This document shows positions 3,412-57,180 of a stretch of 64,000 nucleotides of DNA, in pieces. Both the position numbers and the translations under genes were made by a program. The DNA comes from Ahaetulla prasina (taxonomy: Eukaryota; Chordata; Lepidosauria; Squamata; Colubridae), in NCBI RefSeq assembly GCF_028640845.1, contig NC_080546.1, forward strand, positions 32,261,020 to 32,325,019, read 5' to 3'. The notes beneath the pieces were generated by a model. It was not told where the DNA came from and did not search any database. It saw only the letters and a list, made by a program, of their open reading frames with translations. Within the stretch, counting starts at the first letter, position 1. Each line of letters begins with the position of its first letter.

Positions 3412-3580
3412 GAAAAAAAATACAGAATTATATCTTATGTTTCATAATATGGCAAGAACTGCACTGTTTCAGGACTGTATGCTAAGCAATTATGCTAAGC
3501 AATAGCATAAAAAGCAAATATATAGCAATCATTAAATGGTTTAAATATATTTTATTCTCTGCAGCATTATTGTTATCTAA

Positions 3581-5996: not shown

Positions 5997-8900
5997 GTAA
6001 GTAACTCGCGCGCTTTCGAAAGAGGCATTATTATTCTGTATGTTAGGCAGAAGAGGAAGGGAGGAAAAATCCGTATCATTGTAGATGGCTGCAGTATCTC
6101 CGTGGTTCCCCCCGCCTCTTGGTGGGTGGCTGGATGCTTAAAATTCTGTGTGCTGGATAAAGGCAAATAGCGAAAAGGCTCAGCGAGATGCGAAATGCTT
6201 TTATTTTAAAATCAGCATGAGAAGCCAGGGAAAGATCAAATTATTTACCTTCGACTGAAATGGGTCTTCACATTCAGCTCGGCACTCTAAGCTGTTTATT
6301 AAAGCAGACTTTCTCTCCATATTCTCTTTTGCATATTGCCTTTACAAAAGTATTTTTATTAATGCTGCTGCCCTTGAAGCAAATAATTCTATTTGCTTCT
6401 AGGTAAATATTTGCATCAGGGAGGAATTTTAAAGATGTGCCTGGTGCATTCCTAATAGCAGTGCAGAAAACAGGCTACAGGATCTGTTCTTTCAAATAAT
6501 AATGCTAATACTATATAATACTTTGCTATAAAATGCAAATGTTTTCATAAGTATTTATGAATTATGTTTTACATTATGTAGTAGCTCTGCATTAGATTAT
6601 TCTGGAGGAAATAAACTTCTTTATAGGATGATGTATAATAATTTATTACGATCTTTTTTTTAATACAGTGTGCATTGCAGAGCTACTGCATATTTCACAA
6701 TCTAGATTAAACAGGGATTGAAAAAGTTTATAATATAAATATTGAGAAAATTAGAGTTTGGCAACTATAGAAACTGTTTTGAATATATCCTGTACTTCTC
6801 AGACAATGAAGTTGTGTTTAAAGTGGGAGTTTGTTACAGCTCTGACTCCCAAAATTTGCCTGAAGAAAAATATTTTTTTTCTGTGAACGCCTTTTTTTAT
6901 CATGCTATCCCTTAGGAAATCAAATTAAAGATTGAAAACGTTTTTCCTGAATAAACATGTTAATGTTAATATGGGGTTGTCCGTAGTAATATGAGGAGTC
7001 CTTTTTCAGTGGTTTCCTTATTCTGCACATGGGTAAAAATATGGTTTCTGTTATTCTGTGTCTTGTTTTAAAGAAGAGGCATGCTTGTAAAAGAAGGTTG
7101 TTTTCACATTTTGGTTTTTAGTTTTGTTTGGTAACATGCGGAGTTCTGCTCCATATGAGCCAGAATCATAAGATAGGTTAACTGTATGAACAGCTTCAAT
7201 ACTGAGAAAGTAAAATGAATATGCAGAGCAATTTACATAGAATATTGTCCAAAATGAAATGTAATACATTGGGTTAAAGCCCATAAGTACATTTTAAAGC
7301 CTTGGAAAATGTTACTGTATCTTTGTTATCCTCACCAAAGCACCAGTAGCAGCTCAATAATTAACGTATATCCATTTAATATAAAAAATAAGCATAATTT
7401 GCTTTGAAGGGCAGTGTACCTTGGACATTACAAAGGCTATTTTAAAAAACCAATATGAAAATTAGTATTGGTATGATAGCAGTTATTTAAAACATTTATT
7501 GTATTATAAAATATCTACAATGATAAAAATCCATGCATTTCTATATTCATCATTCTGCTCAAACATATGCTATGTTATTTAGCAAGTGTACAGCAAGTTA
7601 TGGCTGCATTGGTCAAATTTGAAAAGTTTGCATATAAATAGATTTTAATAAACTTGTTCTAAGCAATTTCATACAGTAATGAAACTATTTTATAAAATTC
7701 TTGCATACAGTTTTAATTTCAATTGCTTCCCTAGAAGTTTCTAAAAATCACTGAGCGCATTAACGTTTAATAATTTGTTTGATTCAATATGTTGTTTACT
7801 GGGTATATTTTCTTTTTAGATATACTTTTAAAACAAAACCTTTAAAAAAAACTCGCTGCAAATTGGAGTTAAATCACCATACATTCACACTCCCCCCCCC
7901 GCATTATTCTCATTAAAAAAAAAATTATTAAATCTGTCAAGAGGAGTTAGAAATGCAAGGAACATCTCACAGAAAAGGAATTTAATGTCTTTGATTCCTT
8001 TTCATAAAATGTTTTCCAAATAATTATGCAAGAACCTTTTTGTATATTTATTCATTCAGTTATAGGCCACCCGAATCCTCAACTCTGAACAACTTACAAT
8101 TAAAAAAAAATAGGGAAAAAATATATATGAAAGAACACAGCTGATCGAAAAAAACTTCATAGGACTTCCATAACTATCCAATACCAAGGCCCAGGAGAAT
8201 AAACATATTTTAATCCTTTTCAGAAAGTTATTAAAGTGAGGGCAGTGTGGATCTCATTTTAATCTCATCCTCCTTTGTATTTTTATGCAATTTTTTTCAT
8301 TCTGAGCAATTTAAAAAGCTAGTACATATAAACCTATGTAACCAGATTATAGAAGACAAATTATAATGTGTAAGCATGTAAAAATAAATATAGCAAATAT
8401 TCTGGAAGCCTAATAATTATGGCATGCAAGATTGCACAGAAGGTTGTTGAACTGTTGGAATTATTTAAATTGTATTTTTTTAAATTATAAATCAGAGTGG
8501 TCATTCAAAAGGGCTAAAGGGTTGATAAAAAGAAGGTTCTCCCCCCCCCCAAAGTAATATAAACTGTTCATTACAGTTCTACCTTAAGGTAGTAAGCTAA
8601 CATCTTTTCTCTTGTCCCATTTTACAGATGAAAAGAAAGTTAGACCATGGCTCGGAGGTCCGTTCTTTCTCACTGGGAAAGAAGCCCTGTAAAGTCTCAG
8701 AATATACAAGGTAATTTGGTATAATAAACTGTCATCTGTTTTCAGATACTTTATCATATGCTGTCCAGGCACCTATTTCATGTTTATAGTCAAACCAAAA
8801 TTCAGTTCTCTGCAAAGGACTGAAATTTGACATTTAAGTGCTAACTGCAGAAATATTTCAATTCTGAATTAGAAATAACGGGTCATAGGGCTTTAATAGC

Positions 8901-11900: not shown

Positions 11901-14900
11901 TCAGGAATGGCTGAAAATGTTTCAGGTAATAATAAGTTTCTTTAATTAGCTAATTGTAATAATTCAGAATACCCTTTTGTGAATCTATTAGAACAAATGC
12001 AGAGTATTTCACTATAAAGTTACACCACTTTAGTTTTCTCTCTTTACTCTTCTTTTGAAATAATGAAAATTAATAAACTGTGTGTTGTGTGTATCCTGCT
12101 CTTTTTTTCTCTTTTTCCCAATCTTTATTATAATAAAATAAAGGTAACATTTACAAAAGGTTTTAAAACCTTTTAAACCTGTGTATTTTGTCCACAAGTC
12201 ATAGCTGACTTTAGGGGGCAGCGCTCATCTCCATTTCTAGGCCATTAAGCCAGTGCTGTCTGAAAACGTTTTTGTGGTCATGTGGCCAGCATGACATCAC
12301 ACTGCATTGGAGAGCATGTGGTGAAACACAAAAACACTTATTTTCCCGCCGCATTTATATACTGTTAAATTTCTAGCAGGGCAGGAGCTGAGGCAAGTGA
12401 TGGGAACACATTCCATCATGCAGTGGTAGGACTTGAACCACTAGAGCACAGACCTTCTCCAGCATGTTTAAATTGAGCCACCACGCCTCTTTGATTATCT
12501 TTATTAAATTTCAAAGTCAAACAATAAATTATAATGCAGTACACATTTAATTGGTCCTGTATCGGTGTTTTAATTAAGTATGTTTAAAGACACAGTACCA
12601 AGTATAAAACAAGGTGGATGGACTTAATTACATTGGTGATGGTTGCATTATTGAAAAACTAGGTTAGACACAGGTAGTCATGGAGAAAATCTATTTTAGG
12701 TGGCTGCTACGAATTAACCCTGACTTGATGGCACATAATCAAAAAAGATAAAGTTTTATAGATCTTAGTTATAAATTAAAATGAAAGATTTCTACTTGAA
12801 ATACTTCATATATTAATTTTTTTTTAAAAAAACCACTTAATATAGAAATCATTGTGTATGGTATTGGTTTAAAAAACATTAAATGCAATAACATCCATAG
12901 AAATCAGCATGTTGTAATTTCAAATTTTTTAGTATAGTTGAATATAGTTACTGACATTGAATATTTAAAAATATCAGTTCAGCATATAATATACCATATT
13001 AGCTATTTACTAGCACAAAACCTAAAAAACTAAAATTCAATCATCCTTATTAGACTATGTTCGATTGTTATAAAATTAATGAATAATAGTAACAAAATTA
13101 ATACTTCTTGAATAAGCTTAATTACATAATTCCAAAATACTTTTTATAAATATATGGTCAAACAATGAACATGCATATTATTCAAGAACAAAAGTGCATA
13201 TTACTAAAACTGCATGCATATTTTGATTCCCTCAATATGTTAGAAAATGTCCCATGTAGAATTTCTGCTTCCTAAAATCTCATCCTAATGCAACTTTCTT
13301 GAAATAAATATATTTTTTAAAAAGTGAAGTGTCACAAGGTTCTGGGTGGTATATAACAAAGCAAATACTGAAAAACATACATGTACAAGATATATCTCCA
13401 GGGTGACCAGAGTATAATGCAACCTGGGTGCTTAAATTGAGGAACTCTCCAGCATTCCTGAGATAAATGACAGAGTTAGATTTGGCAAAAGTATATCTGA
13501 TACTTGTAAAAGTGTATAGAGAATTTCCATAATACAAAAGAAACATAATTAACATAACATAACATAACATAACATCAGAGTTGGAAGGGACCTTGGAGGC
13601 CTTCTAGTCCAACCCCCTGCCCAGGCAGGAAACCCTACACCATCTCAGTCAGATGGTTATCCAACATTTTCTTAAAAATTTCCAGTGTTTAAAAATTTCC
13701 AGTGTTGATCATCTTTAATGGATATTAGAGAATTGGGTAATCATAAAGATAAAGTGATTTATCTTTTAAATAGGCAAACTTTAAATAGGATTGTTAATTG
13801 TTAATCCTATTTTAAAGTATAGAAGGGTGAGCTGATTCAATTATTAATATGTATCTTAATTATAAGGAAATTTTAGCAAATTTCCAAATTAGCTAAATTA
13901 GCAAAATTTAGCAAATTTTGACAGCTAATTGTCAGCAGAATTTTCATACAGTCAAAATAAGCGTATTTATTTTATTTTTATTTATTTTATTTTATTTGAT
14001 TTTTATACCGCCCTTCTCCCGAAGGACTCAGGGCGGTGTACAGGCATAATAAAACCGACAATACAATATACAAGTTTAAAATACGATTTAAAAAACTTAT
14101 TTAAATTAGCCCAGTGATTAAAATTTACCATACTAAAAAACCCCGTTTAAAATTAATAAATTTAACATTAAAATCCCAATTTAAGCCAGCCCCGCGCGGA
14201 TAAAAAGATGAGTCTTGAGTTCGCGACGAAATGTCCGAAGGTCAGGTATTTGGCGTAAACCCGGGGGAAGCTCGTTCCAGAGTGTGGGAGCCCCCACAGA
14301 GAAGGCCCTTCCCCTGGGGGCCGCCAGCCGACATTGTTTGGCAGACGGCACCCTGAGAAGTCCCTCTCTATGGGAGCGTACGGGTCGGTGGGAGGCGTGT
14401 GGTAACAGCAGGCGGTCCCGTAAGTACGTATTTTAAGTATAAAATACTTAAACATCAGGGGTTTAAATATCACTAAATTATTTTCTGTGTCCATATAAGA
14501 ATGACCTTATTTGCAGTCAGTGAGCAAATTACGTACTCCTAAATCTCAAATGATACTTTTTGATCGATGAATCATAATACAATAAAGCAATCTATGCTTA
14601 TCTGTATAATTTGCATACTCATGTTTAAGGAAGTACATTTTAAAGACTGAATATGTGGCATTTTTCATTGCTATCTAACTCCAGGAATCAATAATAGAAC
14701 AGAATAAAAAAGTTGCAAGGGACCTTGGAGGTCTTCTAGTCCAGTCCCTTTCTCAAGCAGGAGACACTATACCATTTTGGGCAAATGGCTGTCCAATCTC
14801 TTCTTAAAAACCTCACTTTTGGAGGCAAGCCATTTCACTGAGTTCACACTGTCAGGAAATTGCTCCTTAGTTTTAGATTGGATTTCCTCTTGATAAATTT

Positions 14901-32200: not shown

Positions 32201-34155
32201 CCTTTTGATCACCTTTTGTGACCTTCTGACAAGCAAAGTCAGTGGAGAAGGCAGATTCACTTAACAACCATGTTAGTAATTTAACAACTGCATAATTCAC
32301 TTAACAACAGTACCAAGAACATTCATAAAATGGGGCAAAACTCAACAGTTGTCTTGCTTTGCAACAGACATTTTGGACTCACTTGTTGTAAATTGTTGTA
32401 AATACCTGTATAAAGATGTTTAGAGGACACATTTTAAGAGTCTTAATCTCAATCTTTATATGTTAATGTGTTGCTAAATTCCATATCTCCTGACGAAGAC
32501 AAATTTATTTCTGAAATCCCAGAACTTACTGGAAATATATTTTCTTTTTCAGCCTAAAAATCTGGTGGTAATATTTCAGTTAAATATTTTTTATCATCCT
32601 ATCTATAAGTTGGGTCAATTTAAATGTCTGCTTAAACATACAACCCTGGATTTAGTCTGGACTAAATACTGCTAAAACAGCCACATTATTTTTATTTTTC
32701 CACTTCCTAGAGTTGTCAGTGGGTCTCGAGATGCCACCCTGAGAGTTTGGGACATAGAAACAGGCCAGTGTTTACATGTTCTGATGGGTCATGTAGCTGC
32801 AGTCCGATGTGTACAATATGATGGCAGGAGGGTTGTTAGTGGAGCTTATGATTTCATGGTCAAGGTTTGGGATCCAGAAACTGAAACCTGTCTACACACC
32901 TTGCAAGGGCATACTAATAGAGTCTATTCATTACAGGTAAGCATTTTGTACTGTGCCTTCAGTATTCAACCAAAGTAATTAATTGGTGCCTAATATTTGC
33001 TAAGCACCCAGTACATTATTGGCAACTAACGAGGTCAAATCATTTGGCCTATGCATTCTATATTTTCCTTTTTCTTCTTTTCCCTATTTGTCTAATCTTT
33101 TATGTTATGACATTAAAAAACAGAGCACAGCCAGAGTGTTCAGAATTCTTGTAAAAGTGCCACAGAGCACTTTTACAAGAATTCAGTTCAGATAATCTGG
33201 AGTGCGCTAGCTGTTCTGACTGCATATCCATTTGAGATGAGTTTCTTAAATTTAGCTCAGAGATAAATTTAAGCATATCTTTTAAAATTGAACAACTTGT
33301 GCAATTATATAATAATCATTGAGAATGAATAGGGATGTTTATTATATATTATTATGGTGTTTTCTTGTATTACAGAAAGATCTGTAAAGATTTTTTTCTA
33401 ATAAGTTACTAATTAATTGGGTAAAATATTTTAGATGGACTTTGTAAGTTTTAAATATACTTAAATTGAAAAAAATAATTCTAATTGAATGTGTCTGTTA
33501 ATGACAATAAATGTCTATTTATATTTAAAGCATTTCTTAGAGTGTCAGAGATACTTTTGTTATTCCAAGAAATAAGTTAATAAGAACCATGAAATAGTGG
33601 TACTTGTGTTTAAAGAAAGTGTTTTGCAAACAGTTATAACAGTTTTATTTTAATTGTCTTCTTTTTCATGCACATACTTAAACATATAACTACTTCTAAA
33701 ATAGAAAGTGTACATATAGTTGTATTGATTAATTTGCTTCATTGAATCAAATTGAAATGTTTTAAACATTAAGATGAATTTTTAAACCAGTTTAATAGAG
33801 ATTATTGCATTTTTCATTTATTGGATCCACTTCTACTATACTTGCTACAAATAAAAGAAAAACATGAAATTATTTTAACAAGGGTTATTTTTTTTATTTT
33901 TCAGTTGCATTGTGGAGATTAGAGAATCTGATCTATAGCACTTGAAGTTACATTCTTTTTTTGACAATTAGATATTTATCATGGCATGTTGTCCATAACC
34001 ACTGATTGAGGTTCATTGAAAGCCAGTTTAATAACAGAACATCATTATAGAGAATTTTCTAATATTATGTAGACTAACAAACTTATTATCGTGTAAGTGA
34101 ACTACAAATCACTTTATCAGAATAACTTCCTAGATAAGAATATGTCTATATACCC

Positions 34156-34194
<39 letters not shown>

Positions 34195-37100
34195 CATGTA
34201 TGTATATGTGTACACACACACACACACACACATATACGTACAAAGTGAGATTTAATGGTAGTGAAATGTAGAAGATGTCAGTGACCATAATATTGGCAAT
34301 AGAAATATCACAAAACAGTTATTAGATATGACACTGGCATTATTATGCTGAGCTAATTAACATGTACAAATCTTTACTATCTAATTTATAAGAAAACTGA
34401 ATCCCTTAGTGGAGCATAGCTCAGGTATTTGGGAGTAAAATCTTGTTTGCTTGCTTAAGGCTACCCACATCAATATCAGGTTTGGGTTGTACTAGGGAGA
34501 AGAAGACTTACTATGCCTCTTTTTTTGGTACTGACATTTCAGTGCTAGATTTGAATCTAGTTGTTCTTTTGCATAGAGATGGATCAATTTATACAATGCA
34601 AAGTATAATAAGAGGTTGCTTACAAAGAATGGCATGTGTATCATTAGTAAATGAAGAGGTGTGCAGCTGCTGGCACAAGTAACTATTAGATTCTGTAACA
34701 ATTACTAGATTCTGTCCGATAGAGATCAGATATAAAGTCCACTACGTGATGACAGTGTATCTTGCAGGGTTTGAAACAACATTTAATCTTAGTATGTCTG
34801 AAAGGTGGCAAGCTACCTGGCATTCTGTCATACACATTCACACAGATATGAACATTAATTGAGTCATATATGTCAAGGTTAGGCACTCATGGTCTACATG
34901 CAATGCACAGTTTCCATTTTCCAACTTCCAGTTCATCATAATATTAAAATAGTTAATTTTTGGTGTGTTGTCTCGCCCTTCTCCTTTTGCAGTGGAGACT
35001 AAAAATAAGGGGTTATATTTCTTCTCATTAACTTTTAAATACTTTTTCAAAAGTTACCCAGAGTTGATAACCTGTAAAGAGAAAAGGAATAAACTGTCTT
35101 GTGCAATAGTGAAACATTTGAAATTTTTAAAAACAAGCTTTATAAATGTGTAAGATACTTTGATTGTAGAATAATAAATGTGTAAATCCAGCTTTTGGGA
35201 AGGACAAAAATCTTTTAAATTTGGTTTTACAGTATCTATTTAAATCTATTTATTTGCAAATGTACTTTTTAATGGTAAAGGAACGATCTTCAAATTATTA
35301 AACAATCTTCAAATTATTAGACATTCTTGAAAGGCTACAATTTCTTCATAGCTATATGTCATAATTAAATTTTACATTTTATATTTTGATTGTTTGAGTG
35401 GGTTGGATCCAGACTGTCAGATTTAAACTAAATCCATGCAAACTACTGGGATAGGCTAGTCATGACTACATTTTTTGATGATTTTAGTCAAACTACTAAA
35501 AAGTCTAACAACATCTGTATCTAAGGATGTTTAACAAGTACGCCTTGTTAAAATTTCTCTATTGCAATTCTTTAAGGATATGGAAGGTTGACACTTTGAC
35601 ATAAATATGACTTACTGTCCATGAAGAATATAGAATATTTGTTATAACTGTAAAACATGTATCCAGAATGGCTTAAAAACATTTATGTTCAAATTTTAAC
35701 CATATAATGGAGAATTTAAATTGTGTTGACCTTTATTTTAGCTAATCATTCTCAGTTTTGTTAACTATAGTTGAGAATATAGTCTGTGTTTTATAATTAG
35801 TAACCCATATCTGCTAGCTTTTTTTAAAAAAAGAACAAGTGCTTCTAATTTGAATGGTTTTAAAATCAAAATATATCAGGAATAAAAGAAAATATGCATT
35901 AATGTGCCCTATATTGTAGTATGCCTTTCAGATATAGAATTACAGGTGAGCAGAAATGATTTTCAGTCTGTTAATAGATATCAGAAAATGAATCTTTCAT
36001 CCTGTCTAAATCATATTAAACTTTAAATATATGGGAATAACTTTCACTGTGATAACATTGTTCCAGGTTGCACTTCCTCCTACAAATAATGCCGGCACAT
36101 ATGCTCCGAATCATTTTTAAAATGCAAAGTTACTCCATATCCAAAACTGACTTCTTGTTCCAAATGAGTAGGAAGTAGCTTCCTGAGGCAAAGTGTTTAT
36201 TCTTAACAAAAACTGGATAATTTTGATAAATTTGTCATATCATACGTTCCCTTAATATATATTGAACTTAGTAATATCAAACTATTCACAGATTTGTATC
36301 AACTTACATTCTGAAGAGATAAAACTGTGAATACAATTAGGCAACTAAGAATAATCACAATTCAATATAAATATGTTGATATATGTAAACTTCTTTTCTC
36401 ATAGTTTGATGGTATCCATGTGGTGAGTGGATCTCTTGACACTTCAATCCGAGTTTGGGATGTGGAAACAGGAAATTGCATTCACACATTAACAGGTCAC
36501 CAGTCATTAACAAGTGGAATGGAACTCAAAGACAACATTCTTGTGTCTGGGAATGCAGATTCTACCGTCAAAATCTGGGATATCAAAACAGGACAGTGTT
36601 TACAGACGTTACAAGGTAAGATTTCACAGCCTTGTGTAACTAAGTCATAAAAGTGTTTCAGTACTAATCTATATACATGTATGCATGTCTATATATTATT
36701 GCATATTTGTGAACTATATATACTTTTAAAAAGATTTCCTTGCACTCTTTTTGGTAACAATATTTGATCATGCTCCAGATACATTATAAATGGTTTAGAA
36801 ATAAATCTTCAGTTTTCTCCAGGTGGTATTTTAATGCTTCACTCTTAAATTGTCAATGTGGATTTTGAGGTTTGAGATATTTTTCTTCAATTAGTAAAAA
36901 CAACTCAAGGGTTTTGTTGGATGCTTTCAAAGGTCTTATAAGGGTATATGTTTCATGGAAGGAAAAATATTATTTGGATTTGGAAACCAAGTTAAAGAAA
37001 TTGTAAATAGAAATTGTCAGCTGTTGACTGTTGGAGGCGAGTTATTGGCCCCAAAGGATAGGGTGCGCAACTTAGGTGTCCTCCTGGATGAACGGCTGTC

Positions 37101-39086
37101 GTTTGAAGATCATTTGACGGCCGTCTCCAGGGGGGCCTTCCACCAGGTTCGCCTGGTTCGGCAGTTGCGCCCCTTCCTTGATCGGGATGCCTTGTGCACG
37201 GTCACTCATGCGCCTGCTACCTCTCGCTGGATTATTGTAATGCTCTCTACATGGGGCTCCCTTGAAGTGCACTCGAGGCTTCAGTTAGTCCAGAATGCAG
37301 CTGCGCTGGTGATAGAGGAGCTCGCGTAGCTCCCATATAACACCGCCTCCTGCACAGACTGCACTGGCTACCTGTGGCCTTCGAGTGCACTTTAAGGTTT
37401 TGGTTACTACCTTTAAAGCGCCCATGGCTTAGGGCCTGGGTACTTACGGGACCGCCTGCTGTTACCATATGCCTCCCACCGACCCGCACGCCTCACAGAG
37501 AGGGACTTCTCAGGTGCCGTCCGCCAAGCAATGTTGGCTGGCGGCCCCAGGAAGGTCCTTCTGTGGGGCTCCACACTCTGGAACGAACTTCCCCGGTTTA
37601 CGCCAAATACCTGACCTTCGGACATTCCGTCGCGAACTGAAGACATATCTTTTATTCGGGCTGGCTTAAATTGAATTTTATTAAATTTTAATTTCTTATT
37701 AACTAATTTTAAATGGGGTTTTTAGTTCATTGTATACTTTTCAGGCCAATTTTTAAAATAAGTTTTTTAATTGCATTTTAAATTGTATATTGTACTATCT
37801 GTTTTATTTTGCCTGTACACCGCCCTGAGTCCTTCGGGAGAAGGGCGGTATAAAAATCAAATAAATAAATAAAATAAAATAAATATTCATGTAAGAATTC
37901 CTACCACAGAATTATATAGTAGTTTTAGGTCTGCCAACCTGATGTTTAGCTATTTGTATGCCTCTGAAATTGAATATTCATTGAAGAGTTTTAACTAGAT
38001 TTTGGCAACAGGAAAAAACTGAAAAATCTGGCTTCTCAACTAAAACAACTGAACTATACTATATCTATACTGAAGCATTCTATGAGAAAAATAATCTGAG
38101 ACAACGTATTTCAGTTTTTTGAATTTTTATACTCTTCCTCATAAATAAAACCTTCAACTACCTTATAGGAACTGATTTTTTAAATAATAGATTAAAATTT
38201 CCACAAAAGGTATCTTTGTTGGATTAGCACACTTGTAATGTGGCAGCAACAATTAAAAACAATTAATTGTATTCAGTCTGGTGTGAGTTTCTTATAGAAT
38301 AAGACCAAAACAAAACCTGTACAGTATTTTTTTCAAATAATTTTATTAAAGCTCTTAATAAAACAATTAAACATAATAGAAGCTGGGGGGTGGAGAGAGA
38401 ATTGCAAGAAAAATAAATGTATAAAGAAAAACTTTCCGTCCCCTAAGGAAAAAACTCCTGTTTGTGGCAATTGTTTAATCTCCTTACCTTCTCTTAGCTA
38501 ACAGAAATATAAAACCATTCATCCAATTACCGTATATACTCGAGTATAAGCCGAGTTTTTCAGCACGTTTTTTGTGCTGAAAAGCGCCCCCTCGGCTTAT
38601 ACTCGAGTCTACGTCTTGATGTACTTCGGGAACGCCGCACAGGAGACGCCAAAGAGGCGGGATTTGCCCAAGGCTGAGCAGTTCGCCGCGCGGACCCGAG
38701 CCAAGCCGGTCCCAGTCCAGCCCCTTCCTCTTGCAGCGAGTCCTTTCTACCGCAGGCAGCTAGCTCTCGTTAGTGCGCAAGACGCTGCATTTATTCCTAT
38801 GTGGACACACACGCGCACACCCCCTCACGCACAATTACCCACGCCTCCTTTTCGCAGAACCAAAAATAGCCTCGCGTGCTTATTGCGCCCCCAGCCACCC
38901 ACTCCCTACTCCATTCTCTTTCTCTTCCGAGCCTGCCAAGAGCATCTTGCGAGCGGGCAGGAAAGGCCTTTTTGTGTGTGTGCGTGTGTGTGCGCGCCTG
39001 TGTGCCCTAGTCCCCTTCCTTCTCTTCGGCGGCGCTGGAAGAGAGAGAGAGAGAGAAAGGAGGGGCCGTTCCTCCCCTTCTTTCAT

Positions 39087-39143
<57 letters not shown>

Positions 39144-42100
39144 CGCCTGGCCGAACTGCTTTTGACGGCGCTGCGCGGAGGCGCTTGGCCATCTTTGGAG
39201 AGAGAGAGAGAAAGGAGGGCCGTTCCTCCCTTCTTTCATTCTTTCATTCTCTCTCTCTCTCTTTCTTTTCTTTTCTTTCGCCTGGTCGAACTGCTTTTGA
39301 CGGCGCTGCGCGGAGGTGCTTGGCCGTCTTTGGAGAGAGAGAAAGCCGGGTGAGGGGCGGCTACAAGCCAGTCCCGGGAAAGCGGGATGGTTCCCGTTCG
39401 CCCTGGCCTCCGTCCTCCGATCTCCTGCGCTGGGAGCGAGCGAGCGAGCGAGCGAACGGCTTCGGGCACCGCCGACTTTGGCCCTTTAGCAAGGAGGAAG
39501 GTGGGAGGGAAGCGGAGCTGCCGGCTGTGGCGCTCCGCTCGGAGCCGCCGCCGCCTGGAAGAGGGAGGAGGTGACCTTCACGCGCGGAGAGGGTGGGGGA
39601 TGGGGGGGTTGAGGGGCGTGCAAGAGGAGCGAGCGTGGAGGAAGAGGAGGAGGCGACGGCCCCGCCGGGACAGCGCGGCTTCTAAGACCAGCCCACGCTC
39701 CGAAGAGGGAAAGGGAGCGAGTGGGTGGGTGGCTGGGACGAGACCCCCACCACAAACACACACACACACGCCCCGTGAGACGTCTTGCTTGCATGTCACA
39801 CACACGCACCGCTCGCTGGGGAAAAAAAAGGATGGATGGATGGATGGAAGGAAGGAAGGATGGATTGATGGATGGAGGCGACCGCTTTGAAGCGCAACCC
39901 TTCTCCCGCAACTAAGGGGGGGGGTCAATGTTTTCCCCAATCCTAGGGTGTGGGGAAACAGTCATTCTTTCTTCCCCCCTAGTCTCTCCCGAGATCGCAC
40001 TGCAGCGCCCATCATCCCCAGCCGGCAATCTGAGCTCGTGCCATCGATGTGGTCCTTGAACTTCCCCCTCCTTGTTTCTAACCCAGCCTAGGATGGCCGG
40101 CGTGGAGGGTGTGGTGGTGGTAAAACGGCCAGGAGAAAGCTTTCGCTCTTTTCGAGAGGTCCTCTTGGAAGGCTGCCTTGGAAAGGGAAAGTGGGAGGGG
40201 CAGAGATTTCTCCTCAAAGGTCCCCTTGGAAGGCTGGGTTGGAAAGGGAAAGTGGGAGGGGCAGAGATTTCTTCCTCGGTCCTTCTAGAGTCCTTGAGAA
40301 ACTGAAATCATACAAGGTTAATAAATTATACTCCTCCTCCTCATTGATGAGTTTTTCATCCTGAAATTGATTGAAACATTGTACCATCATATGCTGCCAT
40401 AGTATAGTGTTAACAACATCTGTAAAGATGATATATGAGCATGACACTAAGTTTTTCTATATTTCCCTTTATTGAAAAACTTCCATCATGCTTCTTTCTG
40501 AAAACAAAGGTCATTATAATATACCTCATTATATATTTGATTTGATGATATTTCAGTTAATAAATACCATTTAAGGTGTTAAGCTTCTTTTCTTTTCAGC
40601 AGCAAAGTGAATTACAACTTTAAAGAACTTTATTACTTTATATTCATTTATTTTAAGTATAGATTTTAGATTTTTAAACAAATATGTTTAGAGCTTTTAT
40701 ATCTTTCAAGTTATTCAAATTATCCTCAGCAGGTATATAATGGCATCCAATTCCAATATCATGTTGGGGCTTTTGAGCAAGGGAGGAGGAACGCGAGCAC
40801 CGCCTTTCGCGCTGGCATTCCGGGATTTCCCTTTGTTTAGAGCTGGGAATCCTCCTTCCCCCTTTTGCACTTTTATTGTTTTTCGTTCAAATAAATATTC
40901 ATGTTATTTTACTTGGCTCTATCTTTATTTTTTACATTGACCAGTAGCTGCCTCATTTCCCACCCTAGGCTTATACTCGAGTCAATAGTTTTTCCCAGTT
41001 TTTTGTGGTAAAATTAGGTACCTCGGCTTATATTCGGGTCGGCTTATACTCGAGTATATACGGTACCCATTTCTTAATAGCAAATCAGATAAGTAACATC
41101 TTCAATCCAGTTACCAGCAAAAATATCCATTCAAAGCTTTAACGTTAATTAACATATATAAAACTGAACATTCCACAACTCGCCTCTTAACTGTAACAAA
41201 ATTCATTTAAAAGTCATGAAATTGTCCCAACATCATAATATAAACAAATGTAAAAAAAAAACAAAAAACCCAAGCTTAACCTGACAAAGAGGAACCATTA
41301 CCCTTTTAAAAAAGATAAACTCCAATGCACAATATTCCGAAAAACATCTTATCTTCAGATACACATTCATATGTCCACTCTATTGACAGATCCACATTTC
41401 ACCAGTCTAAAATAATCTGTGTCCTAATAGAGAAAATTTTGAAGATAAATGTATCAGCAATAAATAAATTTTGCATTTTTTAAAAACAAAAATTTCCAAA
41501 TTTCCTTATTTTAACCAAAGAAAATAGTTAAATGTAAAACAAATGTAAGGGCTATAAAATCAGTACTACATAAATTATAATTTAATAAATTATAATTATA
41601 TGTAAAAAAGCTTTTACATCACATCCGGTAAGTAAATACCCCTTTGCCCAAGCTGCACTGGTTGTCTCCAAACCTAGGCCTGCTGTTTGGTCTGGATCTC
41701 TGATGACATTCCATGCTGGAGGTCATTAGTAGACTAGGAGAAAGAACCCATTTCCACCTATTGTATTTTGGATTTTAATTGATTTAATGTCCATCCTCTG
41801 CTAAAAAACAGACATGGGGACCGTTTCATAGAGTCAGACACGACCAGACAAGGAAAATCTTTATCTTTATAGAAAAATATAGTATTTTCTAGTTTAGTAG
41901 ACTCTGATGTTACTTTTTTTGCTAACTTAATTTTGAATTTTTATTTACTCTAGGTCCCAACAAGCATCAAAGTGCTGTGACCTGTTTACAGTTCAACAAG
42001 AACTTTGTAATTACCAGCTCAGATGATGGGACTGTAAAATTATGGGACTTAAAAACGGGTGAATTTATCCGAAATCTAGTTACATTGGAAAGTGGAGGAA

Positions 42101-42222
42101 GTGGAGGTGTTGTATGGCGGATCAGAGCCTCCAACACAAAGCTAGTGTGTGCAGTTGGAAGCCGGAATGGGACTGAGGAAACCAAGCTGCTGGTATTGGA
42201 CTTTGATGTGGATATAAAGTGA
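5736..42222 (+). CDS. FBXW7: FBXW7 (beta isoform), F-box/WD40 ubiquitin ligase receptor; 11 exons
   Basis: FBXW7 is the substrate receptor of an SCF (SKP1-CUL1-F-box) ubiquitin ligase. It binds phosphodegrons in cyclin E, MYC, NOTCH, JUN and similar targets and sends them to the proteasome. The coding exons are 5736-5996, 8628-8710, 11784-11925, 16052-16186, 23564-23687, 24234-24370, 26072-26185, 31021-31202, 32711-32936, 36405-36615 and 41954-42222. They sum to 1884 nt, which is 627 codons plus TGA, the known beta-isoform length. All introns are GT-AG and the phases agree. Residues 1-87 are the beta-specific N-terminus with a hydrophobic stretch at about 11-33. The F-box lies at about 199-244 and eight WD40 repeats at about 298-621. 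The degron-binding arginines equivalent to human R465, R479 and R505 are intact. No frameshift or stop was seen. The gene is ordinary and highly conserved, so identification is certain; the choice of start is less so because of nearby upstream ATGs. Confidence 0.97.
5997..8627 (+). other. FBXW7 intron 1 (of the beta transcript)
   Basis: 2.6 kb, mostly without recognisable repeats. About 8041-8230 looks like an old LINE 3' end in reverse (TATTTATTCATTCAGTTATAG followed by a diverged 'gccaccc' block). In mammals the gamma first exon precedes the first common exon; I searched this intron and saw no convincing copy. Confidence 0.6.
8628..8710 (+). CDS. FBXW7: FBXW7 first common exon ([11 protein letters not shown])
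   Basis: This is the first exon shared by all FBXW7 isoforms, beginning [19 protein letters not shown] and holding a basic nuclear-localisation-like patch. The acceptor is TTTTACAG and the donor AAG|gtaatt. It ends two bases into a serine codon that is completed by the next exon. The exon itself starts with ATG. Confidence 0.97.
8711..11783 (+). other. FBXW7 intron 2
   Basis: 3.1 kb of AT-rich DNA. The only element I recognise is the inverted-repeat MITE at 10405-10762. Confidence 0.7.
10405..10762 (-). mobile_element. Family M inverted-repeat element, copy 2
   Basis: Reverse-oriented relative to the copy at 3581. It begins ACATAGTCCTCGACTTACAA, holds GATCATGTGATCAAAATTCA and ends CATAAGTCGAAGCTACTTGTA. 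Ends and interior match the other three copies, with scattered substitutions. Confidence 0.75.
11784..11925 (+). CDS. FBXW7: FBXW7 exon 3 of the beta transcript
   Basis: Encodes the linker with [20 protein letters not shown] and [21 protein letters not shown]. The latter leads into the dimerisation region before the F-box. The exon opens by completing a serine codon (AG|C) and closes in phase 0 at CAG|gtaata. Confidence 0.97.
12190..12498 (-). mobile_element. tRNA-derived SINE of a second squamate family, reverse
   Basis: On the minus strand the 3' part contains the typical 'ggccacatgaccac' and 'ggagatgagcgctgccccct' blocks. The head end near 12498 has a B-box-like 'ggttcaagtcc'. This family is widespread in squamates. 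Confidence 0.7.
13551..13710 (-). mobile_element. CR1-type LINE 3' end with (AACAT)n tail
   Basis: GAGTTGGAAGGGACCTTGGA and AGTCCAACCCCCTGCCCAGG are hallmark blocks of the amniote CR1 3' region, read in reverse. The microsatellite AACAT repeats at 13551-13575 mark its 3' tail. A 16-bp direct duplication (AAAAATTTCCAGTGTT) lies at about 13674-13706. Confidence 0.85.
13964..14431 (-). mobile_element. CR1/L3-like LINE 3' fragment
   Basis: Minus strand: the C-terminal ORF2 remnant ([11 protein letters not shown] end) is followed by the family 3' tail. On the plus strand the tail reads ATACCGCCCTTCTCCCGAAG, and a (TTTTA)n run at 13964-14010 follows it. Same family as 29231-30129, 31419-31728 and 37014-37887. 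Confidence 0.85.
14690..15200 (-). mobile_element. CR1 LINE fragment with internal deletion
   Basis: Starts with the CR1 3' block TTGCAAGGGACCTTGGAGGT. It jumps at about 15105 to a reverse-transcriptase-region block (ATACACGTTGAGTGCAGTTT ... CAGCCAGTTATGAACCCATC). The part between is missing relative to the usual element. Confidence 0.8.
15434..15662 (-). mobile_element. tRNA-derived SINE, reverse
   Basis: Carries the family body (GACAAGTCCCTGCAGTTTTC) and ends at the head complement AACCACTATACCAAACTGGT. Confidence 0.75.
16052..16186 (+). CDS. FBXW7: FBXW7 exon 4: dimerisation region and F-box start
   Basis: Forty-five whole codons, from [15 protein letters not shown] to DFISLLPKE. The first part belongs to the helical dimerisation region and the last residues open the F-box, which binds SKP1. 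Acceptor CTCAG, donor GAG|gtgagg, phase 0 on both sides. Confidence 0.97.
16650..17870 (-). mobile_element. Old LINE (CR1/L3-like) split by a MITE
   Basis: Two diverged pieces, 16650-17150 and 17529-17870, align in order with the minus-strand LINE at 29231-30129. An example is the GGCCTCCCAATCCAGGAAAG block against the 'agcccgatccagaaagg' block there. The MITE at 17153-17528 sits between them. All reading frames are broken. Confidence 0.55.
17153..17528 (+). mobile_element. Family M inverted-repeat element, copy 3
   Basis: TACCGGTAGTTTTCAATTTA at the left, AGTCAAGGACTACCTGTA at the right, with TA flanks. It interrupts an older LINE, which gives the order of insertion and supports mobility. 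Confidence 0.8.
18056..18118. repeat. (TATCC)n microsatellite, about 12 units
   Basis: Uninterrupted pentanucleotide repeat. Confidence 0.97.
19108..19305 (-). mobile_element. tRNA-derived SINE, reverse
   Basis: Body GACAAGTCCCTGCAGTTTTC, head complement TTAACCACTACATCAAACTG. Same family as 15434-15662. Confidence 0.75.
19351..19609. mobile_element. Short hAT-type non-autonomous element
   Basis: Ends CAGCGTCCCCCAACCTTTGC and GGTTGGGAACCCCTG form hAT-like terminal inverted repeats. The flanks GCATACAG and GTATATAG are a degraded 8-bp target duplication (6 of 8). The interior is GC-rich and not coding. Confidence 0.7.
20560..22370 (-). mobile_element. Degenerate retroelement 3' region, possibly Penelope-like
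   Basis: On the minus strand an open stretch at 21039-20725 reads [17 protein letters not shown], which resembles the C-terminal part of squamate Penelope-like elements. Downstream comes a conserved untranslated part ending in a GGACTCCAC block at about 20605-20615. That part matches the forward copy at 22895-23304. No full reverse transcriptase remains. The family name is tentative. Confidence 0.45.
22476..22885 (-). mobile_element. SINE nested within another SINE
   Basis: The outer SINE runs 22476-22560 (GACAAGTCCCTGCAGTTTTC) and resumes at about 22793-22885 (CTTCCTAGGGCTGAAAGAGA). Between them, 22560-22790 is a second reverse SINE with an AT-rich tail and its own head complement (CTAGATCAAACTGACTC). 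Confidence 0.6.
22895..23304 (+). mobile_element. Retroelement 3' end, forward copy of the 20560 family
   Basis: Encodes a broken EFLEA...SDKSAISRH stretch and then ACCAAAACTGGCAGGCTACT ... ACCAAGGACTCCACAG. This matches the minus-strand element at 20560-21040. An (AGT)n repeat begins exactly at its 3' end. Confidence 0.5.
23305..23372. repeat. (AGT)n microsatellite, about 22 units
   Basis: Pure trinucleotide run attached to the 3' end of the preceding retroelement, as expected for tail-seeded microsatellites. Confidence 0.97.
23564..23687 (+). CDS. FBXW7: FBXW7 exon 5: core of the F-box
   Basis: Encodes the main F-box helices ([37 protein letters not shown]). Two conservative differences from the mammalian protein as I recall it are Asp for Glu in SFLDP and Arg for Lys in KCREEG. 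The acceptor follows a long T-tract (ttttttaatttttgtag). The exon ends one base into a glycine codon at GAAG|gtaagg. Confidence 0.97.
23688..24233 (+). other. FBXW7 intron 5
   Basis: 546 nt, no recognisable element. Confidence 0.8.
24234..24370 (+). CDS. FBXW7: FBXW7 exon 6: linker between F-box and WD40 propeller
   Basis: Encodes [20 protein letters not shown] and [18 protein letters not shown], the helical linker that positions the propeller relative to SKP1. It completes the split glycine (G|GA) and ends in phase 0 at AAG|gtaact. The acceptor has an A-rich tract (aaatatatag) with few pyrimidines. Confidence 0.97.
24371..26071 (+). other. FBXW7 intron 6
   Basis: 1.7 kb. Its middle (24787-25699) carries the unassigned coding relic described separately. 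The remainder is AT-rich without recognised features. Confidence 0.7.
24787..25699 (+). pseudogene. Unassigned coding relic resembling a secreted or envelope-like glycoprotein
   Basis: Three open stretches on the same strand follow one another within 900 nt. They are 24787-25089 (100 codons, hydrophobic signal-like start [12 protein letters not shown]), 25011-25202 (63 codons, another frame) and 25235-25699 (154 codons). The last has at least nine cysteines (for example [27 protein letters not shown]) and N-glycosylation sequons (TNRT, KNQT). A signal-like start with Cys-rich glycosylated segments would suit a secreted protein or a retroviral envelope remnant. I recognise no family. Frame changes mean it is broken. 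It could be chance, but a 154-codon Cys-rich ORF in an AT-rich intron is unusual. Confidence 0.35.
26072..26185 (+). CDS. FBXW7: FBXW7 exon 7: WD40 repeat 1
   Basis: Thirty-eight codons, [12 protein letters not shown] through [14 protein letters not shown], forming the first WD40 blade with its GH and VW signature dipeptides. Acceptor ATTATTAG, donor AAG|gtaaat, phase 0 on both sides. Confidence 0.97.
27848..28690. mobile_element. TA-flanked element with GC-rich cargo, right end not found
   Basis: The left end CCGTATTTTTCGGAGTATAA, preceded by TA, is the terminus of a widespread amniote DNA element. The complementary right end is absent, so it is truncated or its boundary is wrong. The interior (27940-28680) is far more GC-rich than the intron and contains an exon-like fragment at 28165-28541 on the minus strand. 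It also holds two similar blocks, GATGCTCTTTTTTTGCCTCC and GATGCTCTTTTTCTTCCCTG, at about 28459 and 28600. Confidence 0.55.
28165..28260 (-). pseudogene. Exon-like fragment with splice donor inside the GC-rich element
   Basis: On the minus strand this reads [20 protein letters not shown] then [10 protein letters not shown]. It runs exactly into CAG|GTAGGAAG, a strong splice donor (GT at 28164-28163). The sequence looks protein-like and helical, and the open frame extends upstream to 28541. I do not recognise the parent gene. It is best read as a host exon end captured by a transposon. Chance cannot be excluded. Confidence 0.35.
29152..29230. repeat. (ATT)n microsatellite, about 26 units
   Basis: Pure trinucleotide run joined to the 3' tail of the LINE that follows. 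It reads as homopolymeric amino-acid ORFs on both strands, which are not genes. Confidence 0.97.
29231..30133 (-). mobile_element. CR1/L3-like LINE, 5'-truncated, ORF2 C-terminus open
   Basis: An uninterrupted 234-codon minus-strand frame (30125-29421) ends [16 protein letters not shown]. It contains [44 protein letters not shown] and LHWLPV, all standard in the region after the reverse transcriptase of vertebrate CR1-clade LINEs. The RT and endonuclease domains are absent, so it cannot move by itself. The intact frame suggests a young insertion. The 3' tail (ACCGCCCATCTCCCGAAAGA on the plus strand) meets the ATT repeat. Confidence 0.9.
31021..31202 (+). CDS. FBXW7: FBXW7 exon 8: WD40 repeats 2-3, with Arg equivalent to R465
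   Basis: Encodes [35 protein letters not shown] and [15 protein letters not shown]. The arginine in TVRC (codon CGT, 31177-31179; residue 385 in beta numbering) corresponds to human R465, a phosphodegron-binding residue and cancer hotspot. The exon ends two bases into an arginine codon at AAAG|gtaagc. Confidence 0.97.
31419..31728 (-). mobile_element. CR1/L3-like LINE 3' end with (TTTA)n
   Basis: GGACTCAGGGCGGTTTACAG and AGCTCGCGGCGGAAGGTTCG place it in the family of 29231-30133. It is truncated to about 300 nt. Confidence 0.85.
32018..32410 (-). mobile_element. Family M inverted-repeat element, copy 4
   Basis: Edges TACAGGTAGTTCTCAATTTA and AATACCTGTA. The interior reads in the same orientation as copy 2 (CATGATCACGTGATCAAAAT). 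Confidence 0.8.
32711..32936 (+). CDS. FBXW7: FBXW7 exon 9: WD40 repeats 3-5, with Arg equivalents of R479 and R505
   Basis: Encodes [48 protein letters not shown] and TNRVYSLQ. The arginines at 32727-32729 (GSRD) and 32805-32807 (AVRC), both CGA, match human R479 and R505, which contact the phosphodegron. The split arginine is AG|A. The donor is CAG|gtaagc in phase 0. Confidence 0.97.
33143..33184. repeat. Perfect 18-bp stem hairpin with 6-nt loop
   Basis: GAATTCTTGTAAAAGTGC, loop CACAGA, then its exact reverse complement. Outside the stem there is weaker complementarity (CCAGAG at 33131 against CTCCAG-like sequence at about 33198). This suggests a palindromic MITE relic or a small RNA hairpin. 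Confidence 0.85.
34159..34232. repeat. (GT)n followed by (CA)n, an inverted microsatellite pair
   Basis: 33 nt of GT and 23 nt of CA are separated by about 18 nt of TATG-type sequence. The two arms can pair into a long stem. Confidence 0.9.
36405..36615 (+). CDS. FBXW7: FBXW7 exon 10: WD40 repeats 5-7
   Basis: Encodes [38 protein letters not shown] and [20 protein letters not shown]. The acceptor is CTCATAG. The exon ends one base into a glycine codon at CAAG|gtaaga. An in-frame stop lies just inside the intron, so the splice is needed. Confidence 0.97.
37014..37887 (+). mobile_element. CR1/L3-like LINE 3' fragment, frame broken
   Basis: Plus strand: [39 protein letters not shown] and RQLRPFLD, then frameshifts. 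The tail is ACCGCCCTGAGTCCTTCGGG with (AAAT)n. It is the same family as 29231-30133 but with a damaged ORF. Confidence 0.9.
39036..39336. repeat. Two tandem copies of a 135-150 bp GC-rich unit
   Basis: Each unit has GAGAGAGA, AAAGGAGG..CCGTTCCTCC, TTCATTCTTTCATTCTCTCT, a CTTT-type run and then GAACTGCTTTTGACGGCGCT GCGCGGAGG. Unit 1 is about 39036-39195 and unit 2 about 39196-39336. They differ mainly in microsatellite length. Confidence 0.85.
39828..39876. repeat. (GGAT)n/(GGAA)n microsatellite
   Basis: Runs of GGAT and GGAA tetranucleotides inside the CpG-rich cargo. Confidence 0.9.
40156..40284. repeat. Two tandem copies of a roughly 62-bp unit
   Basis: GTCCTCTTGGAAGGCTGCCT ... GGAAAGTGGGAGGGGCAGAG is followed by a second copy starting GTCCCCTTGGAAGGCTGGGT, with few differences. 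Confidence 0.9.
41954..42222 (+). CDS. FBXW7: FBXW7 last coding exon: WD40 repeats 7-8 and C-terminus
   Basis: Encodes [52 protein letters not shown] and the end [11 protein letters not shown], then TGA at 42220-42222. It closes the eight-bladed propeller. The final DIK differs from the DMK I recall for human, a conservative change. The acceptor is ACTCTAG and the split glycine is G|GT. Confidence 0.97.
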
Positions 42223-43596: not shown

Positions 43597-44760
43597 TTTT
43601 GTTTTATTTATAGTCTGTTTCTTTTAAAGAAATCAGATTTCAATTTGTTAATTTTAGATATGTAACAACCTGACAGGATGGAGGAAAAACCTTTAAAGGG
43701 ATTGTGTCTATGATTTGATTCACTTAGAAATTTTATTTTCTTATAAATTAAGTGCAATAAAATGTGTTTTTTTCATGTTAAAAAGTCTTCCTACTAATGA
43801 TTTAATACTGCAATATTTCCAAGTTTGGATGGAATGGAACATTACAAAAGCATTTATATCTACTTGTGTGATAGGATAAACATACACATTTTGAATTGAC
43901 TTTTCAGATTTCCAGCAAAATCCTCATTTCCTTGGTTGTTAGAATCAACTGAAAATCATTTTTGATTCCATGTTTTGAAGGAATTGGAGCAACAGTTGGA
44001 TTTTATAAATGTAAACAGCCTAAGTTAAGTAAAAGTAAATAAGGTATTGAATATTTTCCTACATGATCTACAGAGCAATAAGGACTCGCCTTTCTGACAT
44101 AATTACCTAAAGCAATTAGAACAAAAAAAGTTAATCAAAAGCACCAAAAATACATCTGTAAACTAGAAAAGTAGGGTATTGACAGGTCAAATACGGTTCA
44201 GTATTAGTCATTTTTAAAGTGATGGTACCAAAAAAAAGGTTAATTTCATGATAATTGGTAATTGAATTGGTAATGAATAAGAAAGAAATCTTGGAAGCAC
44301 AACTGGTAGCTTAATGAAAACAAAGTAATACACAGCTTCTATGCAAAGAACAAATGTTTTGGAGGTAAGTAGAAGTGGAAATAAAACAAATTATTGTTTT
44401 TCATTACAAATTTAACCAGATCTAGAATAGTTATTTTTAAAACATTGAGATATTGTAGAGAAAATTGCAAAAAGGCACAATAATCAATAGACCGGTGTTG
44501 CTCCATTATGATGATACTTGGAACATGGGGGCTTTTTGGATTGGAAAAGGGACAGCAAGCAAAGGGACAGGAAATTTCATATGATTAGAAAATTGGTACG
44601 TAGAATCTTTTTCCCTTGATAAGCAGAATAAAACTGGATCACTAACTCAAGCTGCATTCTGACGATTCCAGATGGATGAGAACAACTTCTGTGAATCATG
44701 AGTTTTAATAATAGCTACCAAAAGGAAGTTGCAATTCATAGAGAATAACCCTATTAATGG
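43597..44760. repeat. Tandem duplication, copy 1 (1.16 kb)
   Basis: This block begins in the terminal FBXW7 3'UTR, includes the poly(A) signal and continues about 980 nt downstream. It is followed at once by a near-identical second copy. Compared by eye along the length, I found only two differences: C at 44087 against G at 45251, and one extra G near 45825 in copy 2. The boundaries share a TTTT(G) microhomology. Confidence 0.93.
43752..43761 (+). terminator. FBXW7: FBXW7 proximal poly(A) signal overlapping a miR-25/92 8-mer
   Basis: AATAAA at 43756-43761 is followed by a T-run (TGTGTTTTTTTC) that fits a downstream element. GTGCAATA at 43752-43759, the 8-mer target of the miR-25/92 family, shares four bases with the signal. 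The first good poly(A) signal after the coding region lies here, so this is the likely main 3' end. Confidence 0.75.
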
Positions 44761-45925
44761 TTTTGTTTTATTTATAGTCTGTTTCTTTTAAAGAAATCAG
44801 ATTTCAATTTGTTAATTTTAGATATGTAACAACCTGACAGGATGGAGGAAAAACCTTTAAAGGGATTGTGTCTATGATTTGATTCACTTAGAAATTTTAT
44901 TTTCTTATAAATTAAGTGCAATAAAATGTGTTTTTTTCATGTTAAAAAGTCTTCCTACTAATGATTTAATACTGCAATATTTCCAAGTTTGGATGGAATG
45001 GAACATTACAAAAGCATTTATATCTACTTGTGTGATAGGATAAACATACACATTTTGAATTGACTTTTCAGATTTCCAGCAAAATCCTCATTTCCTTGGT
45101 TGTTAGAATCAACTGAAAATCATTTTTGATTCCATGTTTTGAAGGAATTGGAGCAACAGTTGGATTTTATAAATGTAAACAGCCTAAGTTAAGTAAAAGT
45201 AAATAAGGTATTGAATATTTTCCTACATGATCTACAGAGCAATAAGGACTGGCCTTTCTGACATAATTACCTAAAGCAATTAGAACAAAAAAAGTTAATC
45301 AAAAGCACCAAAAATACATCTGTAAACTAGAAAAGTAGGGTATTGACAGGTCAAATACGGTTCAGTATTAGTCATTTTTAAAGTGATGGTACCAAAAAAA
45401 AGGTTAATTTCATGATAATTGGTAATTGAATTGGTAATGAATAAGAAAGAAATCTTGGAAGCACAACTGGTAGCTTAATGAAAACAAAGTAATACACAGC
45501 TTCTATGCAAAGAACAAATGTTTTGGAGGTAAGTAGAAGTGGAAATAAAACAAATTATTGTTTTTCATTACAAATTTAACCAGATCTAGAATAGTTATTT
45601 TTAAAACATTGAGATATTGTAGAGAAAATTGCAAAAAGGCACAATAATCAATAGACCGGTGTTGCTCCATTATGATGATACTTGGAACATGGGGGCTTTT
45701 TGGATTGGAAAAGGGACAGCAAGCAAAGGGACAGGAAATTTCATATGATTAGAAAATTGGTACGTAGAATCTTTTTCCCTTGATAAGCAGAATAAAACTG
45801 GATCACTAACTCAAGCTGCATTCTGGACGATTCCAGATGGATGAGAACAACTTCTGTGAATCATGAGTTTTAATAATAGCTACCAAAAGGAAGTTGCAAT
45901 TCATAGAGAATAACCCTATTAATGG
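44761..45925. repeat. Tandem duplication, copy 2 (1.16 kb)
   Basis: Direct head-to-tail repeat of 43597-44760 at an offset of 1164, becoming 1165 after the one-base insertion. The copies are over 99.8% identical by eye. This means a very recent event, ongoing homogenisation, or an assembly artefact from two haplotypes. Confidence 0.93.
44916..44925 (+). terminator. Duplicated copy of the FBXW7 poly(A) signal and miR-25/92 site
   Basis: The same GTGCAATAAA with the same T-rich downstream sequence, 1164 nt after the first, carried by the second copy of the tandem duplication. Read-through of the first site would extend the 3'UTR by about 1.16 kb to here. Confidence 0.6.
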
Positions 45926-55319: not shown

Positions 55320-57180
55320 ATATTTATTTATTTTTTATTTATTTATTTTGTCACAACAATATATGTAACTATCATACAGAAAGGTTATATAGTATATAAA
55401 GGTATAGAAGAAAAGAAAAACAATAGGACAGGAACGGTAGGCACGTTTGTGCGCTTATGCACGCCCCTTATGGTCCTCTTAGGAATGGGGTGAGGTCAAT
55501 AGTAGAAAGTTTTTGGTTAAAGCTTTTAGGATTATGAGAAGAGACCACAGAGTCAGGTAAAGTATTCCAAGCACTGATGATTCTGTTACAGAAGTCATAT
55601 TTTCTGCAATCTAGATTAAAGCGGTTGACATTAAGTTTAAATCTATTGGTTGCTCTTGTATTATTGCAATTAAAGCTGAAGTAGTCTTTGACAGGAAGGA
55701 CATTACAATAGATGATTCTATGAGTTAAACTTAGGTCTTGTCGAAGGCGACGGAGTTCCAAGTTTTCTAAGCCCAGGATTTCAAGTCTAGTGGGATAAGG
55801 TATTTTGTTGTTTACAGAGGAATGGAGAACTCTTCTTGTAAAATATTTCTGGACACGTTCAATTGTATTGATGTCAGAGATATGGTGAGGGTTCCAAACA
55901 GGTGAGCTGTATTCTAGAATTGGTCTAGCAAATGTTTTATATGCTCTGGTTAGTAGTGTAGTGTTTTTGGAAAAGAAGCTACGCAAGATTAGGTTTACAA
56001 CTCTTAGAGCCTTTTTTGCTATGTATTTGCAGTGGGCTTTGGCACTTAGATCATTTGACATGAAAACTCCAAGGTCTTTAACAGGATGGGGGTCATCTGT
56101 AAGGTAATGTCCATCAAGCAAGTACTTAGTGTTTGGGTTCTTTTTTCCTATATGTAAGACTGAGCATTTGCTGGTTGAGATTTGGAGTTGCCAAGTTTTA
56201 GACCAAGCGGTTAGATGATCAAGGTCTTTTTGAATGATAGATGTATTATCAGTGGTGTTAAATAGTTTGACATCGTCAGCAAAGAGAACACAATTACTTG
56301 AGATATGGTCACAAAGATCATTAATGTATAGTATGAAGAGTGTTGGTCCAAGGGCGCTGCCTTGAGGAACGCCACTCTTGACAGGAACAGGATTTGATAG
56401 AGCATTGCCAATTTTGACCACTTGTTGTCTGTTAGACAGAAAAGCAGATATCCATTTGTGAAGGGGTCCTGAAATGCCGTAGGATTTTAGTTTTAGGAGA
56501 AGTTTATCGTGTACTACTGAGTCAAAAGCTTTGCAGAAGTCTATGTAGATTGCATCTATTGTTTTGCCTTGATCAAGATTTGTAGTCCATATGTTTTTAC
56601 AGTGGAGAAGTTGTAAGTTGCATGATAATTTTTTCCTGAAACCAAATTGTTTATTGGAGAGTAGGTTGTTTGCTTCTAAGTGTGAGGTAATGTATTGGTT
56701 GATGATTGATTCCATGACTTTGCAGGTGACGCAGCATAGAGAGATTGGTCTGTAATTTTCGACTAAGCTGGGGTCTCCTTTTTTGAAGATGGGGATGACT
56801 GTGGCCAGTGACCACAGTTTGGGAAGGGAACTGGTAGTGAAAGCTTTATCAAAGATTATGCTTAGGGGTTCTGCTTTATTAGTGGAAAGTTTTTTTAAGA
56901 AGTAGGCACATAGTCCATCGGGTCCAATAGATAGCGATGGTTTTATGTTATGAAGAGCTTTTCCAACATTTTCTTCTGTGAAGTCTATATGAGTTAAGTC
57001 ATCATGTTCATTGCTGGTACGTTTGTGGAATGTCGGATATGTGTCATCGCTGTTAACAAAATATATTTGTTTGGGGTATCCTTGGCAAGAAGCAGTCACT
57101 CTCGGCAGGAGGGGTGGAGTTGAAAGAATCATTAGGTTTAAAGTTTATAATGGGAAGAATATTAGTGACCTATTTACAAA
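55320..57180 (-). mobile_element. Non-LTR retrotransposon, 5'-truncated, with reverse transcriptase ORF
   Basis: A minus-strand frame of 554 codons (57132-55468) has no stop. It contains the RT landmarks in order: PIFKKGDPSLVENYRPISL, QFGFRKKLSCN, AIYIDFCKAFDSVVHDKLL, SGVPQGSALGPTLFILYIND and CVLFADDVKLF, where FADD is the catalytic motif. Then come KCSVLHIGKKN and a C-terminal domain ending FLRGP. The endonuclease and 5' part are missing. The type fits the CR1/Rex1/L2 group. The 3' tail has an AT-rich TTTA-type run at 55320-55345. The long open frame points to a recent insertion. Confidence 0.92.

Follow-up and report, generated by a model that had tools for sequence, protein, structure and literature searches.

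A near-perfect 1.16-kb tandem repeat at the 3′ end of FBXW7 in a snake genome assembly: a probable young duplication weighed against an assembly artefact

The DNA under study, a stretch of 64 kb referred to here as the window (C8:32261020-32325019), belongs to a contig of 94.6 Mb, C8, in an assembly of 1,772,332,521 bases (1.77 Gb) distributed over 745 contigs. It carries exons of a gene named FBXW7 in the first-pass annotation, and the name is well founded, as a query joined from two exon translations is identical to the human structure 2ovp at 151 of 152 residues, the single difference being the last but one, where the snake protein ends in DVDIK (window 42214-42219) and the human protein in DVDMK. 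Open frames on the plus strand contain two WD40 exons (32676..32975 and 36405..36647) and the last coding exon (41926..42222), which is closed by a TGA stop codon at 42220-42222. Between the exon frames at 36405 and 41926 there is a CpG-rich stretch (38501-40000), with a G+C content of 0.55-0.63 and a CpG observed/expected ratio of 0.75-1.03, and at 39043-39345 we observe an older short tandem pair with a spacing of ~135-155 bp and copies ~85% alike. Further along, the minus strand carries at 55468-57144 an open frame of 558 amino acids with a reverse-transcriptase domain (RVT_1), whose best named relatives come from Naja naja (76% identity over 95%) and from Ahaetulla prasina (87% over 48%), both of them snakes, which makes a snake the probable host. 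Past the stop codon, the segment 42223..43596 (+) holds 8-base matches to what we take to be the seeds of miR-223 (at 42404, 43332 and 43435, three of the five in the window on this strand) and of miR-27 (at 42704 and 43545, two of the window's four on this strand), as well as an AATAAA at 43317. The AATAAA at 43756, a candidate poly(A) signal, lies 1.53 kb past the stop, in agreement with the length of the human FBXW7 3′UTR, about 1.6 kb. Considering these microRNA-type sites and this spacing, together with the three putative miR-223 sites reported in a fragment of the FBXW7 3′UTR in an excerpt of PMC3251856, the segment 42223-43596 is very likely the true FBXW7 3′UTR.

A duplicated unit starts at nucleotide 1375 past the stop codon and therefore, as had been proposed, inside this presumed 3′UTR. 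Copy A (43597..44760, +; 1164 bp) comprises its last part and about 1 kb of downstream flank, and copy B (44761..45925, +; 1165 bp) follows it head to tail, with a shared TTTT that continues to 45929; a segment that was formerly single-copy is now present twice, at a start-to-start spacing of 1164. Should cleavage follow the candidate signal at 43756, the duplicated portion of the 3′UTR would amount to about 180 nt, the remaining ~1 kb being downstream flank. A base-by-base walk along the two copies encounters 490 identical nucleotides, a C/G mismatch (C at 44087, G at 45251), 574 further identical nucleotides, an additional G in copy B near 45826 (45826..45826) and a last run of 103 identical nucleotides ending at 44764/45929. 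In total, one substitution and one single-base indel separate 1164 from 1165 nt, corresponding to a substitution divergence of 0.09% and to an identity above 99.8% over 1.16 kb, so that the near-perfect tandem duplication first described here stands as described, in its edges as well as in the number of its differences. These differences are compatible with alleles and with young duplicates alike. The unit has a G+C content of 30%, and the 64-kb window contains no N bases. A repeat of this length and identity excludes chance as its origin, and a satellite or dispersed repeat is ruled out by a search of the whole assembly with the unit, in which the two tandem copies were the only matches; there is thus no haplotig copy of the unit among the 1.77 Gb searched. 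No Rfam family in the window scores above its gathering score.

The join itself bears a strict microhomology of 4 nt, the TTTT at 44761..44764 (+), already noticed in the first-pass annotation as microhomology and common to the right edge of both copies; the sequence shared by the two original breakpoints is present in a single copy at the join. With a 1-nt shift of the right edge, nine bases, TTTTTGTTT, become common to both original breakpoints, the actual join having one T less than a perfect join at TTTTTGTTT would have. By eye, an imperfect breakpoint repeat of about 12-13 bases can be discerned, TTTTTGTTT(T)ATT. We propose that, at the downstream element, a replication fork or a broken end slipped back to the upstream element and that the segment was then copied again, which would correspond to an event of the replication slippage, MMBIR or FoSTeS type.

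The locus is not isolated in this respect. A contiguous sample of 264 kb (C8:32161020-32425019), composed of 20 fetched loci and the window, contains six loci, FBXW7 included, with kilobase-scale head-to-tail pairs at least 98% alike. They begin at C8 32232301 (spacing 1740, then 1661 past an indel of ~78 bp), 32250418 (738), 32304616 (FBXW7, 1164), 32370341 (2137), 32386280 (about 1265) and 32393381 (2018, with an indel of ~225 bp between the copies and a nested duplication of 295 bp at 32396299). Leaving the window aside, five loci in 200 kb correspond to one per 40 kb (95% range 17-123), and three other samples of 20 kb, from C1, C3 and C5, revealed no such pairs, a result compatible with this local density (P 0.26). 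No N bases occur in the 264 kb around the locus nor in the 60 kb sampled elsewhere (324 kb altogether). None of the head-to-tail pairs with a unit above 200 bp in the 264 kb has an identity below 98%, and the short tandem repeats of period 20-114 in the same DNA range from 74 to 100% identity. The FBXW7 duplication is one of a class of young kilobase-scale duplications in this assembly and, the class being common elsewhere in it, no special cause is needed for this one. The two indels and the nested duplication, located inside the copies at other loci, are read by us as layered mutation.

The joins of these pairs were compared with random breakpoint pairs taken from the same DNA. Six joins in the 264 kb are clean, and their strict microhomology measures 4 (FBXW7), 11, 6, 2, 11 and 11 nt, with a mean of 7.5 against 0.74 for the random pairs, among which 4 nt are reached in 2.1% and 11 nt in 0.002% of the cases; the sum over the six joins, 45, was attained by 18 of 300000 random sets of six. 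A seventh join has about 14 extra bases that, by eye, match neither side. Such joins resemble those of real slippage or template-switch duplications, which arbitrary contig ends would not. A similar mix of microhomology, blunt joins and joins with inserted bases appears for copy-number breakpoints in PMC4056370, and a mix of microhomology and inserted bases is likewise described for fly duplications in PMC11226609. With simple tandem duplications produced by replication slippage, MMBIR, FoSTeS or MMEJ, the FBXW7 repeat and its neighbours share the head-to-tail copies, the short breakpoint homology and the occasional extra bases; the event itself is no different, but its density, both local and genome-wide, would be unusually high if the copies are real.

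To estimate the frequency of such pairs elsewhere, we counted old-repeat copies with a second copy no more than 3 kb away that agrees in score, strand and query span; each search is represented by its best 40 of 2084-6528 candidates, and the pairs were picked by eye from the tables. Apparently duplicated loci numbered 1/38, 1/38, 0/39 and 0/39, together 2/154 among the best 40 per search, and the two pairs, alike in score, strand and span and of the same kind although on other chromosomes, lie at C1:79714910 and 79715786 (spacing 876) and at C5:59631472 and 59633406 (spacing 1934). The density implied by these best 40 per search is one per 89 kb (25-732). In addition, an old-repeat match at C32:15483-15679 has the same score, identity and span as one at C7:79036363-79036559, which may be a coincidence or may mean that C32 is a haplotig left uncollapsed from C7.

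Coding exons were surveyed in three families. Neither the homeobox exons (0/142 loci, counted from 150 rows after dropping 8 additional ones that fell within three multi-homeodomain frames) nor the RRM exons (0/148 rows) gave any duplicated locus, and on these two families exons seemed to be spared, with P 0.00012 against the local density and P 0.023 against the old-repeat rate. In the 139 kinase rows there were two clusters, each of three rows with equal scores, one at C1:330648702-330654038 (near 330.65 Mb; spacings 2286 and 2835) and one at C11:16678863-16685613 (near 16.68 Mb; spacings 2342 and 4223), both being either tandem genes or exon triplications. Merging of rows that share a reading frame was confined to those three multi-homeodomain frames and to the two kinase clusters (4 rows), which leaves two clusters, possibly paralogous genes, among about 425 exon loci. 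Because this third family yielded the clusters, we have withdrawn exon avoidance as a proof that the duplications are real: 2 of about 425 exon loci do not differ significantly from 2/154 old-repeat loci (Fisher P 0.29). Exon duplications do stay low when only the local density is taken as the reference, with 13 expected (P 0.0002). Near one end of C8, a homeobox exon also occurs twice in inverted arrangement, at 12720-12890 (-) and 354153-354323 (+), with equal score and frame length.

Taken together, these observations make it reasonably probable, as far as assembled sequence can tell, that the sequenced animal truly carries the FBXW7 repeat, on one chromosome or more, as a recent tandem duplication of 1164 bp. 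A true mutation is favoured by the junctions, by the absence of gaps and of a haplotig, and by the layered changes inside the copies. Against it, the strict microhomology at FBXW7 itself is of only 4 nt. Both the junction anatomy and the substitution divergence agree with the earlier description as a very young structural variant, whose reality is to be taken with the same reasonable, not high, confidence.

The principal alternative is that two versions of the 1.16-kb stretch, differing as haplotypes or through errors, were strung together by a fault recurring throughout the assembly, and we regard it as a serious possibility, although short of even. The density of the pairs and their uniform youth favour either such an artefact or a very active process: near-identical kilobase-scale pairs are many (six loci in 264 kb, two of the 154 old-repeat loci, two clusters in the ~425 exon loci), the copies differ in the way of allelic SNPs and small indels, and no old kilobase-scale head-to-tail pair accompanies them. 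This lack of old long tandem copies could reflect either their fast loss by recombination or the allelic nature of the copies, and the occurrence of exactly 11 nt at three joins could hint at a word-based step in the assembly. The equal scores on C32 and C7 and the inverted homeobox pair on C8 are further hints of uncollapsed sequence elsewhere. According to an excerpt of PMC9516828, false duplications are widespread in vertebrate assemblies; in that same excerpt, however, false copies are mostly separated by a gap and sometimes by wrongly filled sequence, whereas here no N interrupts the window, the 264-kb block or the 324 kb sampled in all. Moreover, microhomology is far commoner at these joins than at random edges, and the whole-assembly search revealed no haplotig copy of the unit. 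In respect to known false duplications of the heterotype and homotype kinds, the resemblance thus lies in the near-identical copies, the allele-like differences and the recurrence through the assembly, and the difference lies in the absence of a gap and of a separate haplotig and in the microhomology at the joins. The haplotype-duplication artefact first put forward as the other option is in this way weakened on three counts and kept as the main rival.

If the duplication is real, one substitution in 1164 nt dates it to 0.18-0.61 million years, for substitution rates of 2.4e-9 to 0.7e-9 per site per year, the Poisson limits being ~5 thousand and 3.4 million years. The human genome, of about 3.1 Gb, offers a comparison for the density. 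Across 1,019 humans, 17,029 duplications were found, 15,295 of them tandem, as stated in an excerpt of PMC12350158, and this corresponds to one tandem duplication per roughly 200 kb for everyone summed and to fewer per person. Taken alone, the FBXW7 repeat is either a young structural variant of an ordinary kind or a fault of the assembly. We advance only tentatively, and would not expect it on balance, that the genome truly contains tens of thousands of young, microhomology-joined tandem duplications of kilobase scale, one per ~40-90 kb; this single assembly would then be denser in them than those 1,019 humans summed (PMC12350158, from the same excerpt), which would imply an unusually active slippage or template-switch process, coupled to a fast loss of old copies, of which FBXW7 would be one instance. 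Were the pattern real, the birth, the loss and the repair pathway of kilobase-scale tandem duplications would become measurable. Were it an artefact, ~1-3% of the sampled loci (2/154 for the old repeats, 3% from the local density) would lie in falsely doubled sequence, and gene and 3′UTR annotation as well as copy-number studies would be misled. Among the papers listed by literature searches on tandem or false duplications in snakes and on alternative polyadenylation of FBXW7, no entry points to this finding, which is no proof of novelty.

As to the gene, the AATAAA of copy A (43756..43761, +), the candidate native poly(A) signal, overlaps GTGCAATA (43752-43759), which we take to be an 8-base seed match of the miR-25/92 type, and both recur in copy B, the hexamer at 44920..44925 (+) and the seed match at 44916-44923. 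Two candidate poly(A) signals thus stand in line, and of the two identical cleavage signals 1164 nt apart that had been claimed, the repetition and its distance are correct. That they are cleavage signals is only a candidate assignment, because each copy has three AATAAA (43756, 44380 and 44627 in copy A; 44920, 45544 and 45791 in copy B), the one at 43317 precedes the unit and the window totals 107 on this strand. The viral contigs searched contained no match to a 21-base pattern taken from around the poly(A) signal. The signal at 43756 retains its original neighbourhood on both sides, with native 3′UTR upstream (159 nt of it within the unit) and ~1 kb of native sequence downstream, so that the signal of copy B would be usable only on read-through. 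The suggestion that the duplication creates an alternative, longer 3′UTR is weakened accordingly. Transcripts should be cut at the same place as before the duplication, at the candidate signal 43756, and copy B would at most offer a fail-safe site to read-through transcripts, whose 3′UTR, 1164 nt longer, would be rare. With the gene's own candidate end signal still in place, the duplication probably does little to FBXW7: its effect is likely small and a change in FBXW7 output is unlikely. It appears very improbable that the duplication is a functional novelty, with a longer FBXW7 3′UTR isoform in use, an extra miR-25/92-type site and a change in dosage, perhaps kept by selection, since the copy-A signal is unaltered between its native flanks and similar duplications are common elsewhere in the assembly, even though the signal and the presumed seed match are both doubled and the FBXW7 3′UTR is a reported target of miR-92a, with a site said to be conserved across species (PMC6503554 and PMC7049228). 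The arrangement resembles tandem alternative polyadenylation sites in that one candidate signal occurs twice in succession within the same 3′ region, and differs from them in that here it comes from a fresh duplication and the second signal is a candidate only.
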